A stretch of DNA of 64,000 nucleotides from Balneola sp. (lineage in GTDB: Bacteria > Bacteroidota > Rhodothermia > Balneolales > Balneolaceae): contig NZQV01000026.1 in NCBI GenBank assembly GCA_002696035.1, positions 248,001-312,000 on the forward strand. Reading direction: 5' to 3'. Below the pieces are notes generated by a model. That model did not search any database, was not told where the DNA came from, and was given only the letters and a program-made list of their open reading frames with translations. Within the stretch, counting starts at the first letter, position 1, and each line of letters begins with the position of its first letter. Below are positions 26,408-63,905 of this stretch, one piece after another. A program made the translations under genes and the position numbers.

Positions 26408-26473
26408 TCAAGTCTGAAGACTTGACCTGCTAATGCTTTTCAGTCACCGCGTTCGCTCAAGACTGAAAAAATC
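26408..26473. repeat. Two-hairpin extragenic repeat, copy A
   Basis: Hairpin 1 is TCAAGTCTGAAGACTTGA (26408-26425). Hairpin 2 has stem TTTTCAGTC (26437-26445) and GACTGAAAA (26461-26469) around a 15-base loop that contains TCGCTCAA. The copy at 36412-36476 has identical stems, the same 15-base loop length and the same orientation. It occupies the gap between the DUF308-like gene and the methyltransferase gene. Confidence 0.85.
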
Positions 26474-36411: not shown

Positions 36412-36476
36412 TCAAGTCTGAAGACTTGAATTACTACAACTTTTCAGTCTCCGCAATCGCTCAAGACTGAAAAGAT
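36412..36476. repeat. Two-hairpin extragenic repeat, copy B
   Basis: TCAAGTCTGAAGACTTGA (36412-36429), then stem TTTTCAGTC (36441-36449) and GACTGAAAA (36465-36473) with a 15-base loop. It is nearly identical to the copy at 26408-26473 outside an 11-base linker. It lies in the 211-base gap between the IYD-like and YciI-like genes; nothing else is seen in that gap. Confidence 0.85.
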
Positions 36477-36591
36477 CTTTGGGGCTAATTTGTGACTTCA
36501 AGCCCAAGGTGATTTAGTTAAAACTGATCACTTAAGAAGTTAAAGAATCGGCCTCAGAAAAAAGGGCGTAAAGAAGGTGACGAAAGGAAAA

Positions 36592-56736: not shown

Positions 56737-58083
56737 ATGTGGGGATATCCACTCGTTATTTTATTGGTTGGTGGCGGACTTTGGTTTCTGATCTCATCCG
56801 GATTCACTCCATTCAAATTTTTCTTTCATGCCATTGACCTGGTGCGTGGCAAATATGACAATCCTGATGACCCCGGCGATATCAATCACTTTGAAGCACT
56901 TTCCACGGCCCTGGCCTCGACGGGAGGAATGGGGAATATCAGCGGTGTGGCTGTTGCGATTTTTATGGGAGGCCCCGGCGCTCTGTTTTGGATGTGGATG
57001 AGTGCCATAGTGGGAATGGCTACCAAATACTTTACCTGTACGCTATCCATTATGTATCGTGGAGAAGATTCTGAAGGGAAGATCCAGGGAGGCCCGATGT
57101 ACGTAATTCGTGAAGGACTCAGTGGCAAGTGGATGCCTCTCGCATACCTGTTTGCTTTAGCCGGGTTGTTTGGTCCGCTGCCGATCTTTCAAACCAATCA
57201 GCTGGTACAGATCCTCAGAGATTTTATCTACATCCCGAATGGCTGGGTTGAAGCCGATGCCGCTTTTTCAGGAAACCTGATCACCGGAATTGTGTTGGTT
57301 GGATTGGTTTCGCTGGTGATCTTTGGAGGGATCACAAAGATCGGTAAAGTAGCTTCCAAACTCGTGCCGGCCATGGTGGTGATCTATTTCGTATCCGTGC
57401 TCTTTATTTTAGCGGTTCATATTGCCGATGTGCCGCACTATTTAGGCCTGATCGTTTCGGACGCCTTCACCGGAAAAGCCGTGATGGGTGGGGCTGTTGG
57501 TCAGTTGATCATCATTGGAATTCAGCGAGCTGCTTTTTCGAATGAGGCGGGAATCGGGACTGAGTCGCTGGCGCACGGGGCATCCAAAACCAAAGAACCG
57601 GTGCGGGAAGGCTTGGTTGCTATGATGGAACCTGCTATAGATACGTTGATCGTTTGTACTATGACCGCCCTTGCCATCCTGGTAACCGGCGTTTGGCAAA
57701 CCACTGAAGCCAATGGGGTTACTTTAACCTTAAATGCCTTTAACGAAGCACTACCCACGTTCGGAACCTATTTATTGATGATCTCCGTTTTCACCTTTAG
57801 CGTGAGTTCCATGCTTTCCTATTCGTATTACGGCTCAAAGTGTCTCGGCTTTTTGATCGGTGCCGACAAACAACATCTATACAACTACTTTTATGTATTC
57901 TCCATCATCTTTGGCGCAGTAGCTTCTTTGGACGCTGTAATCAATCTGATTGACGGAATGTTTGCCCTGATGGCGGTACCGACGATGATCTCCGCCTTAC
58001 TCCTCTCACCCAAAGTTAGAGAAGCTTCTAAGGACTATTTCAAGAGATTGAGAGCCGGCGAGTTTAAGGAGTATAAAAAATAG
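56737..58083 (+). CDS. Sodium:alanine symporter (AGCS family)
   Basis: 448 residues with about ten helices and AGCS motifs: FEALSTALASTGGMGNISGVAVAI, IQGGPMYVI, GPLPIFQTNQ, QRAAFSNEAGIGTESLAHGA and YSYYGSKCLGFL. It imports alanine or glycine with Na+. The ATG at 56737 leaves the first helix short. In-frame residues upstream (LALLEEFLAAFSSF) look like the usual AGCS start, yet no ATG, GTG or TTG lies between them and the stop at 56680. A CTG at 56695 may be the true start. Confidence 0.88.
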   Translation: MWGYPLVILLVGGGLWFLISSGFTPFKFFFHAIDLVRGKYDNPDDPGDINHFEALSTALASTGGMGNISGVAVAIFMGGPGALFWMWMSAIVGMATKYFTCTLSIMYRGEDSEGKIQGGPMYVIREGLSGKWMPLAYLFALAGLFGPLPIFQTNQLVQILRDFIYIPNGWVEADAAFSGNLITGIVLVGLVSLVIFGGITKIGKVASKLVPAMVVIYFVSVLFILAVHIADVPHYLGLIVSDAFTGKAVMGGAVGQLIIIGIQRAAFSNEAGIGTESLAHGASKTKEPVREGLVAMMEPAIDTLIVCTMTALAILVTGVWQTTEANGVTLTLNAFNEALPTFGTYLLMISVFTFSVSSMLSYSYYGSKCLGFLIGADKQHLYNYFYVFSIIFGAVASLDAVINLIDGMFALMAVPTMISALLLSPKVREASKDYFKRLRAGEFKEYKK

Positions 58084-58123
58084 AATACATCAACAGTTTT
58101 TGATGTGATGACTATTAATAGCT

Positions 58124-58139
58124 CCGGCCCTCAGGCCGG
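58124..58139. repeat. GC-rich palindrome CCGGCC-CTCA-GGCCGG next to the RAYT fragment
   Basis: A perfect 6-base GC stem with a CTCA loop, 23 bases before the transposase-like fragment. Its compact GC-rich form is that of REP sequences that RAYT enzymes act on. A weaker hairpin, ACATCAA/TTGATGT (58087-58106), precedes it directly after the symporter stop. Confidence 0.5.
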
Positions 58140-58152
58140 TGAGGGAGTATAA

Positions 58153-58311
58153 TAATTTGGATGGCAAGACGAGTACTTTGCGTTTTCCGTCGGTCTGTCT
58201 CAACTGAAAAGTCTTATTAAGTATATTGATAAGCAGGAAAATCATCACGAAGTAAAGACCTTTAAAAAAGAATAGGAGGAATTCATAGAGATCTATGGAT
58301 TCTATATTTGA
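58153..58311 (+). pseudogene. Remnant of a RAYT / IS200-like Y1 transposase (C-terminal part)
   Basis: In frame from 58153 the bases encode FGWQDEYFAFSVG (W at 58162), then SQLKSLIKYIDKQENHHEVK and TFKKE. A TAG (58273-58275) interrupts, and EEFIEIYGFYI-stop (58309-58311) continues the frame. The order W-Q-x-x-Y-x-A-F-S-V, I-x-x-Q-x-x-H-H and F-x-x-E-(x)-E-x-x-x-x-Y-x-I is the conserved end of REP-associated tyrosine transposases. The N-terminal HUH part is gone. This is a relic, not an active gene. It sits in a 420-base gap where nothing else is coding. Confidence 0.72.
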
Positions 58312-58503
58312 AGTAGTAAGAAAACGGCTTTCTTGTTAGGCAGAGACTTTTGGACAATTCCCTTCCCAATCCAGATCCCAGAGATATTCAGTTTTAATTC
58401 TGGTGATATAGCGCTCACTTATTATATTATTAACAACTTGTGTTATGAATTTAAAACGCCCGGTTTTAGAAAGAGGTACAAATAAGAGCAAATTACGATA
58501 CGT

Positions 58504-61260
58504 ATGGAACGGCAGAAATGGAATAAAATCAACAAAATTGTAGATAATGCGCTGGACCTCAAAAAGGAAGAACGAGAAAAATACATCAAAGAAGAATGTG
58601 AGGACGATTCTAGTCTCAAGAGAGAAGTCACACAGTTTTTGGAGTCTATTGATCAATCCCAAAAAACAGGTTTTTTGGAGGATAAGGAGGAATACCTCAA
58701 AGATCTTACAATAGGAGCCGGTCAGGGCATTCAGGAAACGAGCTCATCGTTAATTGGGAAAACGATAGGCAAATATAAAATTCTGGAATTGATCGGGCAT
58801 GGAGGAATGGGTTCCGTATTTCTTACCGAACGAGTTGATGGGGCTTACGACGAAAAAGTGGCCCTTAAGCTGCTTCGGAGCGGTATGGATACACCGTCAA
58901 ATATTGCGCGCTTCAAACGGGAGCGAAAAATCCTGGCACGTCTTAATCACCCGAACATAGCCCATCTGCTGGATGGGGGAGTAACCGGTGATGGGCTGCC
59001 TTATCTGGTTATGGAGTATGTGAATGGTGTTCCGCTATTGGAATATTGCAACAACCACAACCTATCGGTTAAAGACCGTCTTGATCTGTTTGAGTCAACG
59101 TGTAAAGCGGTAGAATATGCTCATAGAAATGCCATCATTCACCGGGATCTAAAACCATCCAATATATTTGTAACAAAGGATGGAACAGTAAAAATACTGG
59201 ACTTTGGAATTGCTAAGTTAACGGAGGTTGATCAGGGCGATGACTATTTAATTCAAACCCAAACAACTACCCGAATACTGACACTCGGCTATGCGGCTCC
59301 GGAACAATTTGAAAACATCAAGATCACGACCGCAACGGATTGCTACACCCTGGGAATCTTGTTGTATGAATTACTTGCCGGCACCCGTCCTTTTGATCTG
59401 GGGGACAAACCTCTTTCCGAAGTTGAAAAGATCATCTGTCATCAAACACCGTCTAAACCATCGCAAAAATTCAGTTCTCTCTCTGAGGAGACAAAAAATG
59501 AAATTGCCCGTTGCCGGAATGTATCGCCCACCGGCTTAGTGCAAAAACTGAGTGGAGATCTGGATGCTATTGTGATGAAGGCATTACGCATCGAAAATGA
59601 AGCCCGCTATGATTCAGTACAGCAGTTGCTTGATGATCTCAAGCGCCATAAACAATCCCGACCACTGATTGCCCGGAGCGACACCGTTCGGTATCGGTTC
59701 AAAAAATTCATGCATAGAAACCGCAGAGCTGTAGCAGCCGCAGGCTTAATTATTGTTTCAGTCGCAGGTATTGGTTTTTACCATTTCAACCGGATTACTG
59801 TTGAACGGAACATTGCGGAAAGAGAAGCCCGGAAAGCACAGACGGTCAAAGGGTTTTTGGTGGATGTATTCCGGGCCTCCAATCCCCGTTCAAGTAATTT
59901 TGAAGGAGTGGAATTGTCGGCGAGGCAATTGTTGGAAAATGGCAAAAATGCGATAGATCAGGATCTGCATGAGGAACCGGATGTCTATATAGAGGTACTG
60001 TTAGCTATCGGCGAGGCTCAAAAAAACATAGATGCGTATGAAGAAGCTGAAAGAACATATAATCAGGCGCTATCCATAAGTCCCGAAACGAGTGAACCCG
60101 TTAAGAATGAGATACGCACGTATGTACAATTAGGGTGGCTGCACACAGACTGGCGAAAGAGTCAAGAGCAGGCCCACGAATATGCCCTGAAAGCTCGCGA
60201 AATGCTGAAAACAGTGGAGAAGCCCTCTCCGACATTAGAGGCATCCGTGTATGGAATACTGGGTCGGGTAACTTCAGTTTTGGATGATTATGAGCTGGGA
60301 AATTCCTACTTCGAAAAAGCGGATAGTATTTACACAGCGGCAGGATTAGAGAATAGTGATGAATACATCAAAATGCTTACGGGGTATGGCCGGGCATTAC
60401 TTTATGTGTCTGATTATGAGAAATCCGAAGAGGTGTTGCTAAGATCAAACCGGTTGCACCGCGAAAAATATGACCGGCCCACCTTAACAATGGCAGAAAA
60501 CTACAAGTTTATTGCATGGACCAATCGGGAGTTGGGTAATTTCGATAGATCGAATGCGTATTTTTTGAAATCAATAGAACTGAAGAGAGAACTTAGTGGA
60601 GACCGAAGCGTTCAAGTGGCACTTCCCATGTATCACCTCGCCCACAATTATATGCTATCCGGTAAATTTGAAAGATCAGAGGAGCTTGCTCAAAATGTGT
60701 TGAGTATTTACAGGGAAAATCTGCAGCCAGATAACCAATATGTGCATCAGGCAATGAACTACCTGGCGATTGCGAAATTACATCAAGGTAAACTTGAGGA
60801 AGCAGAAAACCTCCTGACCAAGATCGTAGAAGAAAACGATGTAGAAATATATTTAACCTATGTAGAAACACAGCTTGCTAAAGTTTATCAGGAAACCGGA
60901 AGATTTGAAGAAGCCATTTCTTTGCTGAATGAAGCCCTGGAATTCAATAAAAATAAATTTGGCGCCGATAGTCGTGATGTGGGGATCGATCTGCTAAACC
61001 TGGCCACTGTTTATCGCGAAATGGGGAATTACGAACAAGCTGATACCTATTATGAACAGGCAGAATCAATTTTAGTAAATGAATTCCCGAAAGGACATTA
61101 CCGTTTGGCAGAACTCTATTACAACTACGGGAAATTGAAATTAGCCATCGGTGATGAACAAGGTGCTCAAGAGCGTTTTAAAAAAGCCCATGAAATTTAC
61201 CTGGATTGCTTTGGTGATGGTAGTCCGCGTACAAAAGAAGTAGAAAATTATTTGGGGTGA
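58504..61260 (+). CDS. Membrane Ser/Thr protein kinase with C-terminal TPR repeats
   Basis: 918 residues. An N-terminal ~75-residue helical region precedes a Hanks-type kinase domain. This has the glycine loop IGHGGMGSVFLTER, Lys in KVALKLLRSG, catalytic HRDLKPSNIFV (about residue 213), DFGIAKL and GYAAPEQFE. A single transmembrane segment (about residues 408-428, AVAAAGLIIVSVAGIGFYHF) separates it from an outer region of many TPR motifs (for example YEEAERTYNQALSI and GNYEQADTYYEQAESIL). The kinase should be cytoplasmic and the TPRs periplasmic. The ligand and substrate are unknown. Single-gene unit. Confidence 0.92.
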   Translation: MERQKWNKINKIVDNALDLKKEEREKYIKEECEDDSSLKREVTQFLESIDQSQKTGFLEDKEEYLKDLTIGAGQGIQETSSSLIGKTIGKYKILELIGHGGMGSVFLTERVDGAYDEKVALKLLRSGMDTPSNIARFKRERKILARLNHPNIAHLLDGGVTGDGLPYLVMEYVNGVPLLEYCNNHNLSVKDRLDLFESTCKAVEYAHRNAIIHRDLKPSNIFVTKDGTVKILDFGIAKLTEVDQGDDYLIQTQTTTRILTLGYAAPEQFENIKITTATDCYTLGILLYELLAGTRPFDLGDKPLSEVEKIICHQTPSKPSQKFSSLSEETKNEIARCRNVSPTGLVQKLSGDLDAIVMKALRIENEARYDSVQQLLDDLKRHKQSRPLIARSDTVRYRFKKFMHRNRRAVAAAGLIIVSVAGIGFYHFNRITVERNIAEREARKAQTVKGFLVDVFRASNPRSSNFEGVELSARQLLENGKNAIDQDLHEEPDVYIEVLLAIGEAQKNIDAYEEAERTYNQALSISPETSEPVKNEIRTYVQLGWLHTDWRKSQEQAHEYALKAREMLKTVEKPSPTLEASVYGILGRVTSVLDDYELGNSYFEKADSIYTAAGLENSDEYIKMLTGYGRALLYVSDYEKSEEVLLRSNRLHREKYDRPTLTMAENYKFIAWTNRELGNFDRSNAYFLKSIELKRELSGDRSVQVALPMYHLAHNYMLSGKFERSEELAQNVLSIYRENLQPDNQYVHQAMNYLAIAKLHQGKLEEAENLLTKIVEENDVEIYLTYVETQLAKVYQETGRFEEAISLLNEALEFNKNKFGADSRDVGIDLLNLATVYREMGNYEQADTYYEQAESILVNEFPKGHYRLAELYYNYGKLKLAIGDEQGAQERFKKAHEIYLDCFGDGSPRTKEVENYLG

Positions 61261-61493: not shown

Positions 61494-63905
61494 ATGAAGC
61501 GAACCATATTTTTTCTGCTGATGGCTTTTGTGTCTTTCCAGGCCACAGCGCAACTGACCACTATATCCGAAAAAACAGAAGGACTCACCAAAACCGAAGG
61601 CTTTTTCGATTACTATTATGATGAAGCCAAAGATCAACTCTGGCTCGAAATAGATAAGCTGGATACTGAATTTATATACGTGAATTCCCTGGCGGCCGGA
61701 ATCGGCTCCAACGATATTGGTCTCGATCGTGGGCAATTGGGTGATACCCGAATAGTGTATTTTGAACGGCGCGGCCTAAAGGTGATGATGGTTCAGCCAA
61801 ACTACGGCTTCCGTGCGGAGACGGATAATGAATTAGAGAAAAAATCAGTCCGGGAAGCTTTTGCCAAATCCATTTTAGCCGGATTTGAGATCGCTGCTGA
61901 GGAAGATGGTAAAGTACTCATCAACATTACGGATTTTCTTCTGCGGGATGCGCACGGGGTAACTTCCACTTTGCAAAGAAGTAATCAGGGCTCTTTTAGT
62001 TTAGACAAAAACCGCTCCGCTTTATATAAGGAAGCCATCATGAACTTTCCCAAGAACACAGAATTTGAAGCCACCCTCACTTTTGCAGGAAACAATCCCG
62101 GCGGTTATGTTCGCTCTGTGACCCCAACTCCTGAAGCCATCACCGTACGCCAGCATCATTCTTTTGTGGAGTTACCAGATGATGGATATCAGAAACGCGA
62201 ATACGATCCGCGGGCGGGATATTTTGGGATCAGCTATCAGGATTATGGAACACCGATCGATGAACCTTTGACCAAGCGATTCATTTCCCGTCACCGATTG
62301 GAGAAGAAAGATCCGGGAGCCGAAGTCAGTGAGCCGGTTGAACCGATCGTCTATTATCTGGATAACGGAACTCCGGAGCCGGTTCGAAGTGCGCTTTTGG
62401 ATGGTGCCCGCTGGTGGAATCAGGCTTTTGAGGCAGCCGGTTATAAGGATGCTTTTATTGTGAAAGTACTTCCCGAAGATGCTCATCCGCTGGATGTTCG
62501 CTACAATGTGATTCAGTGGATCCATCGCTCTACCAGAGGATGGTCATATGGCTCTTCCGTTCGTGATCCAAGAACCGGCGAGATCATCAAAGGACATGTG
62601 TCGCTCGGTTCACTCCGCGTTCGTCAGGATTATTTAATTGCTGAAGGCCTGCTTGCCCCTTATGCCGATGAATCCCAGGAAAACACCCTGATGCAGGAAA
62701 TGGCACTGGCGCGAATCCGTCAGCTTTCCGCACATGAAATTGGCCATACCATCGGGGTCGCTCACAACTTTGCAGCCAGCATTACGGATGATGCTTCAGT
62801 GATGGATTACCCGCATCCCCAGCCAAAAATTGTAAATGGCGAGATCGATCTTTCCAATCCTTATGACGTGGGAATCGGGGAGTGGGATAAAATGGCGGTT
62901 GCTTATGGCTACCAGGATTTTCCGGAAGGAACCAATGAAGAAACTGCTTTAAATGAAATTCTGAATGAAGCCTACGATTCCGGATTGAAATATATTTCTG
63001 ATCAGGATGCTCGCCCACAAAGCGGCGCCCACCCGGATGCACATTTGTGGGAATTTGGGGATGATCCGGTAGAGCAACTTCCAACTATCATGGAGATCCG
63101 AAAGACAGCGCTCGAGAATTTTGGGGAGGCGAACTTAAAAACCGGCCGTCCTTTGGCTGAACTTCAAGATGTTCTTGTTCCGATCTATCTCTTTCATCGT
63201 TATCAAGTTGAGGCAACGGTGAAGTTGATCGGCGGACTCGATTATACCTACAAAGTGAAAGGTGACAATCAGGCCTATCCTGAGATCGTGGATCGTTCTA
63301 CCCAGGAGAATGCTCTTGATGCAATGTTAGCCACTATTACTCCAGAAGCTCTGGCCTTGCCTGAAAATCTGCTGGAACTTATTCCTCCACGCCCCGCCGG
63401 ACTTGGTTATTCCCGCGAACTATTCAATGGAAATACAGGTCCTGCTTTGGATGCGCTCGGTATTGCTGAAACAGCAGCAGATCTTCCCGTTAGTCTGATC
63501 TTGAATCCTGACAGAGCCAATCGGTTAGTGGAATATTCTGCAAGAACCGGGAACCTGAGTTTGGAAGAAACGCTGGATGAACTCATTAAGGTAAGCTGGG
63601 ATAAGAAAGCCAACAGCGGGTATCTGGGCTCGGTTCAAAGAGTAGTAAATCATGTAGTGTTGAAAAATATGATCGAGCTGGCAGCCTCTAACAATGCCAA
63701 CCCTGTTACCAAAGCAATCGGGCATAAAAAGCTGACGGATCTTCAAACTAAATTATCGGGAAGAAAAGATGCCGACAGTCAGTATGGAGCACATCTGATC
63801 GCTCAATACCTCACCAATCCCGAAGAGTTTGAAGTGGAAGATGCCCCGGCACCACCTCCGGGCTCTCCGATTGGCTCGGATGTAATGATATATTGTGAGT
63901 TTTAA
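61494..63905 (+). CDS. Large exported zinc metalloprotease (DUF5117/DUF4953 type)
   Basis: 803 residues with a signal peptide (MKRTIFFLLMAFVSFQATAQ). N-terminal beta-rich DUF5117-type region with FFDYYYDEAKDQLWLEIDKL. The metzincin-like site is HEIGHTIGVAHNFA (about residue 412; HExxHxxGxxH), and a Met in DASVMDYPHP forms the Met-turn. DUF4953-like features follow (YDVGIGEWDKMAVAYGYQDF). The C-terminal ~250 residues are helical. Proteins of this kind are common in Bacteroidota and Balneolota; the substrate is unknown. It starts after a spacer with hairpins and ends before a repeat. Confidence 0.88.
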   Translation: MKRTIFFLLMAFVSFQATAQLTTISEKTEGLTKTEGFFDYYYDEAKDQLWLEIDKLDTEFIYVNSLAAGIGSNDIGLDRGQLGDTRIVYFERRGLKVMMVQPNYGFRAETDNELEKKSVREAFAKSILAGFEIAAEEDGKVLINITDFLLRDAHGVTSTLQRSNQGSFSLDKNRSALYKEAIMNFPKNTEFEATLTFAGNNPGGYVRSVTPTPEAITVRQHHSFVELPDDGYQKREYDPRAGYFGISYQDYGTPIDEPLTKRFISRHRLEKKDPGAEVSEPVEPIVYYLDNGTPEPVRSALLDGARWWNQAFEAAGYKDAFIVKVLPEDAHPLDVRYNVIQWIHRSTRGWSYGSSVRDPRTGEIIKGHVSLGSLRVRQDYLIAEGLLAPYADESQENTLMQEMALARIRQLSAHEIGHTIGVAHNFAASITDDASVMDYPHPQPKIVNGEIDLSNPYDVGIGEWDKMAVAYGYQDFPEGTNEETALNEILNEAYDSGLKYISDQDARPQSGAHPDAHLWEFGDDPVEQLPTIMEIRKTALENFGEANLKTGRPLAELQDVLVPIYLFHRYQVEATVKLIGGLDYTYKVKGDNQAYPEIVDRSTQENALDAMLATITPEALALPENLLELIPPRPAGLGYSRELFNGNTGPALDALGIAETAADLPVSLILNPDRANRLVEYSARTGNLSLEETLDELIKVSWDKKANSGYLGSVQRVVNHVVLKNMIELAASNNANPVTKAIGHKKLTDLQTKLSGRKDADSQYGAHLIAQYLTNPEEFEVEDAPAPPPGSPIGSDVMIYCEF

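Follow-up and report, generated by a model that had tools for sequence, protein, structure and literature searches.

Does a dead transposase gene beside a GC-rich palindrome record how such palindromes spread? Repetitive extragenic palindromes (REPs) are common bacterial repeats, and the evidence linking them to domesticated transposases comes from class 2 enzymes with GTAG feet. We analyzed a locus in a 64,000-nt stretch of Balneola sp. (assembly GCA_002696035.1, contig NZQV01000026.1, positions 248,001–312,000; hereafter the window). An initial annotation had described it as a relic of a REP-associated tyrosine transposase (RAYT) next to a perfect hairpin, in a window full of extragenic palindromes, and as a possible footprint of their spread. 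We conclude that the feature is probably what remains of a REPtron: a Y1 (HUH) transposase gene of subclass 1.2 with one of its bracketing hairpins (Table 1).

The relic and its hairpin

The relic open reading frame (ORF) encodes 51 residues from the C-terminal end of a Y1 transposase. It opens with FGWQDEYFAFSVGLSQLKSLIKYIDKQENHH, retains the motif YIDKQENHH (a form of Y...Q..HH) and ends at a TGA after a single internal TAG, which bears out the description of a decayed C-terminal fragment with one stop. Alone, the relic aligns to positions 97–121 of the 121 in the Pfam model Y1_Tnp (E = 0.00097; 19.7 bits, below the curated cut-off of 23) and matches no NCBIfam family. Compared with genomes, it finds intact relatives at 62–66% identity (E from 6.2e-17 to 1.7e-16), so it is not a chance reading frame. 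As read from the sequence, roughly 90 codons at the 5' end of the gene are gone, as are the right-hand hairpins.

The perfect GC-rich hairpin is likewise as first described: its core reads CCGGCC-CTCA-GGCCGG, with 6-bp arms. Allowing a single T.T mismatch widens the arms to 8 nt (58122–58129 and 58134–58141; H1 in Table 1). Positions 58118–58141 consist of ATAG followed by CTCCGGCC-CTCA-GGCCGGTG, and the relic frame begins 14 bases further on. A second hairpin, CCCTCA/TGAGGG (58128–58145), is mutually exclusive with H1. In the window CCGGCCNNNNGGCCGG has one exact match, the core hairpin itself, and five with up to two mismatches, against a shuffle mean of 0.9. An Rfam element is rejected, a search of that database giving no match.

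Because the hairpin lies 40 bases past the symporter stop codon, it could be a mere transcription terminator of that gene with no tie to a transposase. We find this highly unlikely: no T run follows the hairpin, no terminator-like site occurs in 57900–58510, and orthologous hairpins flank the intact gene left and right and also occur by a homologue at another locus in genome G019.

Table 1. Features of the relic locus, in window coordinates
Feature	Position	Strand	Basis and remarks
Sodium/alanine-type symporter gene	56737..58083	+	448-aa ORF; also left neighbour of the intact gene in G001, G002 and G007
Hairpin foot ATAG (class RTWG)	58118..58121	+	Sequence; RTWG 12 nt before the loop in 49/96 homologous hairpins
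Hairpin H1	58122..58141	+	8-nt arms with one mismatch; loop CTCA (TTCA in orthologues); perfect core 58124–58139
Relic of subclass 1.2 TnpA_Y1 gene	58156..58311	+	Catalytic-Tyr region kept, HUH part gone
In-frame TAG inside relic	58273..58275	+	Sequence
Kinase-like gene, 918 aa	58504..61260	+	ORF; between relic and right neighbour
Zinc-metalloprotease-like gene	61494..63905	+	ORF; right neighbour of the locus in orthologues

Intact orthologues at the same locus

Homologues were sought in 96 genomes from the window's own genome (G000), genus, family, order and class, and 44 had a match. The best matches to the relic after the window itself are in G001 (66% identity), G007 (66%) and G002 (62%; Gracilimonas amylolytica LA399, phylum Balneolota), all of the same genus. 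In these three the gene is intact (142–143 aa, DHLH motif) and sits between the relic's neighbours, which we take from their sequences to encode a symporter and a zinc-metalloprotease-like protein. Three other genomes (G003, G004, G005) have both neighbours and no transposase gene between them; in G006 and G008 neither the transposase gene nor the metalloprotease gene is within the retrieved locus, and G009 has no symporter match at threshold. Among the 30 symporter loci examined, the window's is the only one with the kinase gene next to the symporter; acquisition of this gene may be connected with the disappearance of the right-hand hairpins.

Comparison of the transposase genes of G001 and G007 gives a nonsynonymous divergence (dN) of 0.009 and a synonymous divergence (dS) of 0.105, indicating purifying selection; dS between either and G002 is saturated. 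A symporter tree pairs G000 with G002 (support 89) and places G005 with G001 and G007 (88), with weak deeper branches (31–45). The simplest reading of the locus distribution, short of proof, is ancient presence with several losses.

An ordinary IS200-type insertion sequence hopping independently into this locus in several species is one alternative. In its favour, the protein is of the IS200 class, and in three genomes of the genus these neighbours flank no such gene. Against this, the three intact genes and the relic share one locus, the G002 gene is 75–76% identical to those of G007 and G001, as old common descent predicts, and each Gracilimonas genome has a single close copy, with no second one in G001, G002 or G007. 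We therefore regard independent hops as very unlikely.

Following the suggestion to look for intact relatives and the hairpins they flank, we found each intact gene (G001, G002 and G007) to be bracketed by CCGGCCTTCAGGCCGG or a variant differing by one or two bases. The relic's hairpin type thus flanks its intact orthologues, and for them the linked repeats are not unrelated. A search for TTGCNCCGGCCTTCAGGCCGGTG with up to three mismatches in 92 family genomes matched 10, and reversed-pattern controls gave no match in any of the 92. The matches number two in G002, two in G007, three in G001, one in G000 (the relic), one in G019, two in G011, 36 in G003 and one each in G022, G115 and G126. The third match in G001 is an inverted pair elsewhere (L125). 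The G019 match lies about 160 nt from a homologue that is the closest one outside the genus (63% identical), at a different locus; the loci retrieved from G011, G022, G115 and G126 contain no homologue.

Enzyme class

The homologues share a signature. Y...Q..H occurs in 80 of 84 genes, and Y...Q..HH in all 71 chosen references, which were drawn from genes preselected for Y...Q..H. WQ is present in 67 of 71 homologues, and most HUH motifs read DHLH, DHIH or DHVH (54/71). Table 1 of Quentin et al. (2018; PMC6006769) gives subclass 1.2 of TnpA_Y1 as DH[IV]H, WQ, Y...Q..HH, about 148 aa and REP ‘no’. Our genes resemble this entry in length, DHxH, WQ, Y...Q..HH, low copy number and occurrence in Bacteroidetes; the DHLH of the orthologues has L where the table gives I or V. 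Judged by this signature, and not by the profiles of Quentin et al., the enzyme fits the IS200-like subclass 1.2 rather than a classical RAYT.

Model searches agree with that placement. The G002 protein scores 69.7 bits against the NCBIfam IS200/IS605 transposase model (cut-off 55), and the aligned homologues all match it at E ≤ 0.001 (50/50). All eight sequence matches found in the PDB are IS200-type transposases. An AlphaFold model (predicted local distance difference test score 93.2) is best matched by ISDra2 and IS608 TnpA, with TnpA_REP (4er8) at rank 30 (E = 1.7e-5).

The initial annotation was right that a fragment of a REP-type Y1 transposase lies next to its cognate palindrome; its naming of a RAYT proper is not supported by the sequence. 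A classical RAYT (class 2 TnpA_REP) would account for the REPtron-like layout, and the NCBIfam RAYT model does match 43 of 50 homologues at E ≤ 0.001. That identification is nonetheless scarcely credible, given Y...Q..HH in place of Y...NP, a RAYT score for the G002 protein of 37 bits against a cut-off of 80, and feet that are mainly RTWG, not GT[AG]G.

Palindromes around the genes

We compared the 250 nt upstream of each gene with its own downstream flank and with foreign ones at 44 loci (46 less two without an ORF; L040 and L142 denote a single place). At 33 loci the own flank was equalled by no more than one of 43 foreign flanks (medians 31.5 own versus 13). A fresh set came from 247 phylum genomes, 108 of which have a homologue; 26 of 29 loci were usable, three being dropped for short flanks, and one of the set (L210) is not fresh, being the gene of L029 again. 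Here the medians were 39 for own and 16 for swapped flanks, at most one foreign flank was as good at 17 of 26 loci, and 21 of 26 exceeded the top of 18 neighbour-gene controls (25), with the other five at 22 or below. Most loci thus have own-flank palindromes, unlike the REP ‘no’ tabulated for subclass 1.2.

The form of the palindromes was analyzed in 73 distinct genes (84 minus four without the Y signature and seven identical). TTYA or its complement forms the loop of 90 of 115 tetraloop hairpins, compared to 0 of 3 in 52 control flanks, and of the 96 TTYA hairpins with a stem of at least 6, 49 have RTWG exactly 12 nt ahead of the loop, other offsets tried giving at most three each; both rules were noticed in the same loci that supplied these first counts. 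A TTYA hairpin accompanies 43 of the 73 genes, on both sides in 30 and with a foot in 25. Feet at the base of the perfect stem are mostly ATTG, ATAG or GTTG and not GT[AG]G, although single GTAG feet are possible since RTWG covers GTAG. Another TTYA hairpin (H2) follows 32 of 52 footed H1 hairpins, in 26 of these at 37–41 nt loop to loop.

Hairpin type follows protein phylogeny. One clade of the protein tree (support 100/97), which includes the relic's orthologues, has a TTYA hairpin at 34 of 35 genes; beyond the midpoint split, such a hairpin is missing from 27 of 31 genes. The 44-locus comparison included 25 of these 27, of which 20 have well-matching own flanks of another kind. Labels for the footed type cluster on the tree (0 of 500 shuffles as low). 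The relic's clade carries a distinct hairpin type, with an RTWG foot, 8-nt arms and a TTYA loop; about 40 nt further along there is often another TTYA hairpin.

Dispersed copies in other genomes

In genus g67 of the same phylum, all eight genomes have 20–86 matches to TTGCCCCGGNCTTYAGNCCGGGG at up to two mismatches, and the reversed control gives none in seven genomes and one in the eighth. Seven of these genomes have one homologue and G291 has two. No homologue is within the locus (up to 1.5 kb on each side) at 29 of 30 retrieved g67 loci, and H2 follows 43 of 61 footed H1 hairpins there.

With the looser pattern RTWGCNNNNNNCTTYAGNNNNNNG, the median number of matches in 247 genomes is 10 in the 33 with a homologue at E ≤ 1e-30, a line set after the homologue search of these genomes had been seen; 3 in the 75 with remoter homologues only; and 2 in the 139 without one. 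The first and last groups differ at p = 5e-12 (reversed control, p = 0.97). With family f23 removed from the gene side, at least eight matches occur in 13/25 versus 9/139 genomes (p = 2e-7), the comparison group still including f23 genomes and the genomes sharing ancestry. Both tests overlap genomes of the first counts, and gene-flanking copies add a few matches per genome. Since TTGCCCCGGNCTTYAGNCCGGGG and RTWGCNNNNNNCTTYAGNNNNNNG contain part of the foot and loop, these are not independent features in the counts.

The hairpins could also have spread through the phylum by other means, with transposase genes merely among them. The 36 hairpin matches in G003 can be read this way, as the retrieved copies lie inside elements with the terminal inverted repeat (TIR) ACGTCAGTTCGAGATAA, and REP-rich genomes without the gene exist. 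On the other side, hairpin type tracks protein clade across families and motif count tracks the gene in 247 genomes. We judge spread by other means rather unlikely.

We rejected the 36 G003 matches as products of the Y1 gene because of this TIR element; G003 has two short-type homologues (C2 and C9), neither near any hairpin match. The short element (G003 loci L046–L074 and L110–L138) has 65 TIR matches in G003, 136 in G008 and four in G000, with mostly TA at both flanks. One group in G003 has the CCGGCCTTCAGGCCGG hairpin inside its ends; a 2-bp duplication is found in 13 of 19 flank pairs from G000, G003 and G008.

Some hairpin populations stand without the gene. G162, G175 and G261 (genus g67) have 67, 20 and 15 motif matches and no homologue at E ≤ 1e-8; perhaps these populations outlived their enzyme. 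G278, also without a homologue, has 18 matches, many of them GTAGCGRCGGC-TTYA in short tandem spacing, a GTAG-footed TTYA type. By eye, gene-free inverted pairs resembling REP doublets forming hairpins (REPINs) are visible as H1-H2-H2'-H1' in L117 (G126) and L118 (G011) and as an H1 pair in L125 (G001).

The window's own genome

Two parts of the initial annotation are not borne out in the Balneola genome. The relic's 22-nt hairpin with flank occurs at one place genome-wide with three mismatches allowed, so the relic did not seed the window's palindromes; the 16-nt core has one further place at one mismatch, equal to its reversed control. Nor is the window full of extragenic palindromes. It has four perfect hairpins with a stem of at least 8, and a 464-kb sample (12% of the genome, made up of the window and 20 sampled stretches) has 32, or 4.4 per 64 kb, with no core repeated within the sample. 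At a stem of at least 7, three window hairpins are intergenic and one is intragenic; TTYA-loop hairpins with a stem of at least 6 number three, against a shuffled mean of 0.6.

Dispersal in this genome was considered and rejected: the cognate palindromes of the intact genes L001–L004 have 0, 3, 2 and 0 loose matches in the 464 kb versus 0, 2, 4 and 0 when reversed. RTWGCNNNNNNCTTYAGNNNNNNG has six matches in the genome and five for its control. With the full hairpin unique and palindrome density average, the locus reads as a dead REPtron and not as a source of local repeats. Separately, a sequence of 66 nt is directly repeated at positions 26408–26473 and 36412–36477 (85% identity between the copies) and contains the hairpin CAAGTC-TTCA-GACTTG, with a TTCA loop, as well as a second stem; both of its places in the 464 kb are in the window.

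Discussion

Y1 enzymes bind hairpins in single-stranded DNA, and a foot tetranucleotide places the cut (PMC6006769, in its account of the family). Hairpin recognition by such an enzyme would leave a conserved foot at constant spacing from a constant loop. The ancestral enzyme may have recognized the hairpin in single-stranded DNA through its foot and cut and rejoined there, like TnpA of IS608 and ISDra2 and E. coli TnpA_REP. It could then have copied hairpin modules to other sites, presumably making few or no copies in Gracilimonas; in the window strain the gene would have died by deletion and a nonsense change. That the enzyme moves the hairpins is an inference.

The broader reading, which we favour with less assurance than the identity of the relic, is that subclass 1.2 transposases of Bacteroidota are true REP-associated enzymes with their own REP superfamily (a two-hairpin module with RTWG foot, 8-nt arm and TTYA loops), spread as RAYTs spread GTAG REPs. 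REP domestication would then have occurred in class 1 as well as class 2, and the window would show such a system after the death of its enzyme.

Several results weigh against these readings. At least two foreign flanks beat the own flank at 11 of 44 loci in the first set and 9 of 26 in the fresh set; of 73 genes, 30 are without a TTYA hairpin and 48 without an RTWG foot. The footed type needs 11 changes on the protein tree, so it is clustered without a single origin. Five genomes with the clade's gene (G002, G170, G220, G239, G322) have at most four matches, and 12 genomes with at least 12 matches have no clade-like gene; in six of these (G138, G162, G175, G243, G261, G278) no homologue of any kind reaches E ≤ 1e-8. 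Some of these cases might reflect loss of the gene once the hairpins had spread. At the locus itself, the best fit to the relic hairpin is a G002 copy located at the opposite end of the gene. With its flank it aligns over 33 nt (88%) to the G002 right copy, 25 nt (88%) to the G002 left copy and 34 nt (85%) to the reverse of the G001 left copy.

Related systems differ in defined ways. RAYT/TnpA_REP REPtrons (GTAG REPs, REPINs) similarly have a low-copy Y1 gene between footed hairpins, dispersed copies in some genomes and inverted pairs; here, in contrast, the protein is class 1, the foot is mostly ATTG, ATAG or GTTG, the tetraloop is TTYA and a second hairpin lies about 40 nt on. IS608 and ISDra2 (IS200/IS605, subclass 1.1) are the best matches by sequence and fold, but our gene is low-copy, occupies one locus in several species without multiple near-identical copies, and has no tnpB among ORFs of at least 70 aa in L016–L018. 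TIRYTs and TIRtrons, as presented in the main text of Di Nocera et al. (2013; PMC3733652), are also tyrosine transposases flanked by non-GTAG inverted repeats, some dispersed. According to that text, TIRYTs share RAYT motifs and CGTC repeats are not tied to transposases; ‘ATTG’ does not occur in it. Compared with subclass 1.2 as entered in the table of PMC6006769 (REP ‘no’), most genes here have matching flanking palindromes, of a fixed type in one clade.

The intact relatives point to a hairpin type for an enzyme group recorded as REP-less in that table. If true, a second class of enzymes, having a foot and loop of its own, would be a natural comparison for how Y1 enzymes read hairpins, and would offer a way to ask why transposases become low-copy resident genes. 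Within the genus, a single locus can be compared between lineages in which the gene is intact, dead or missing.
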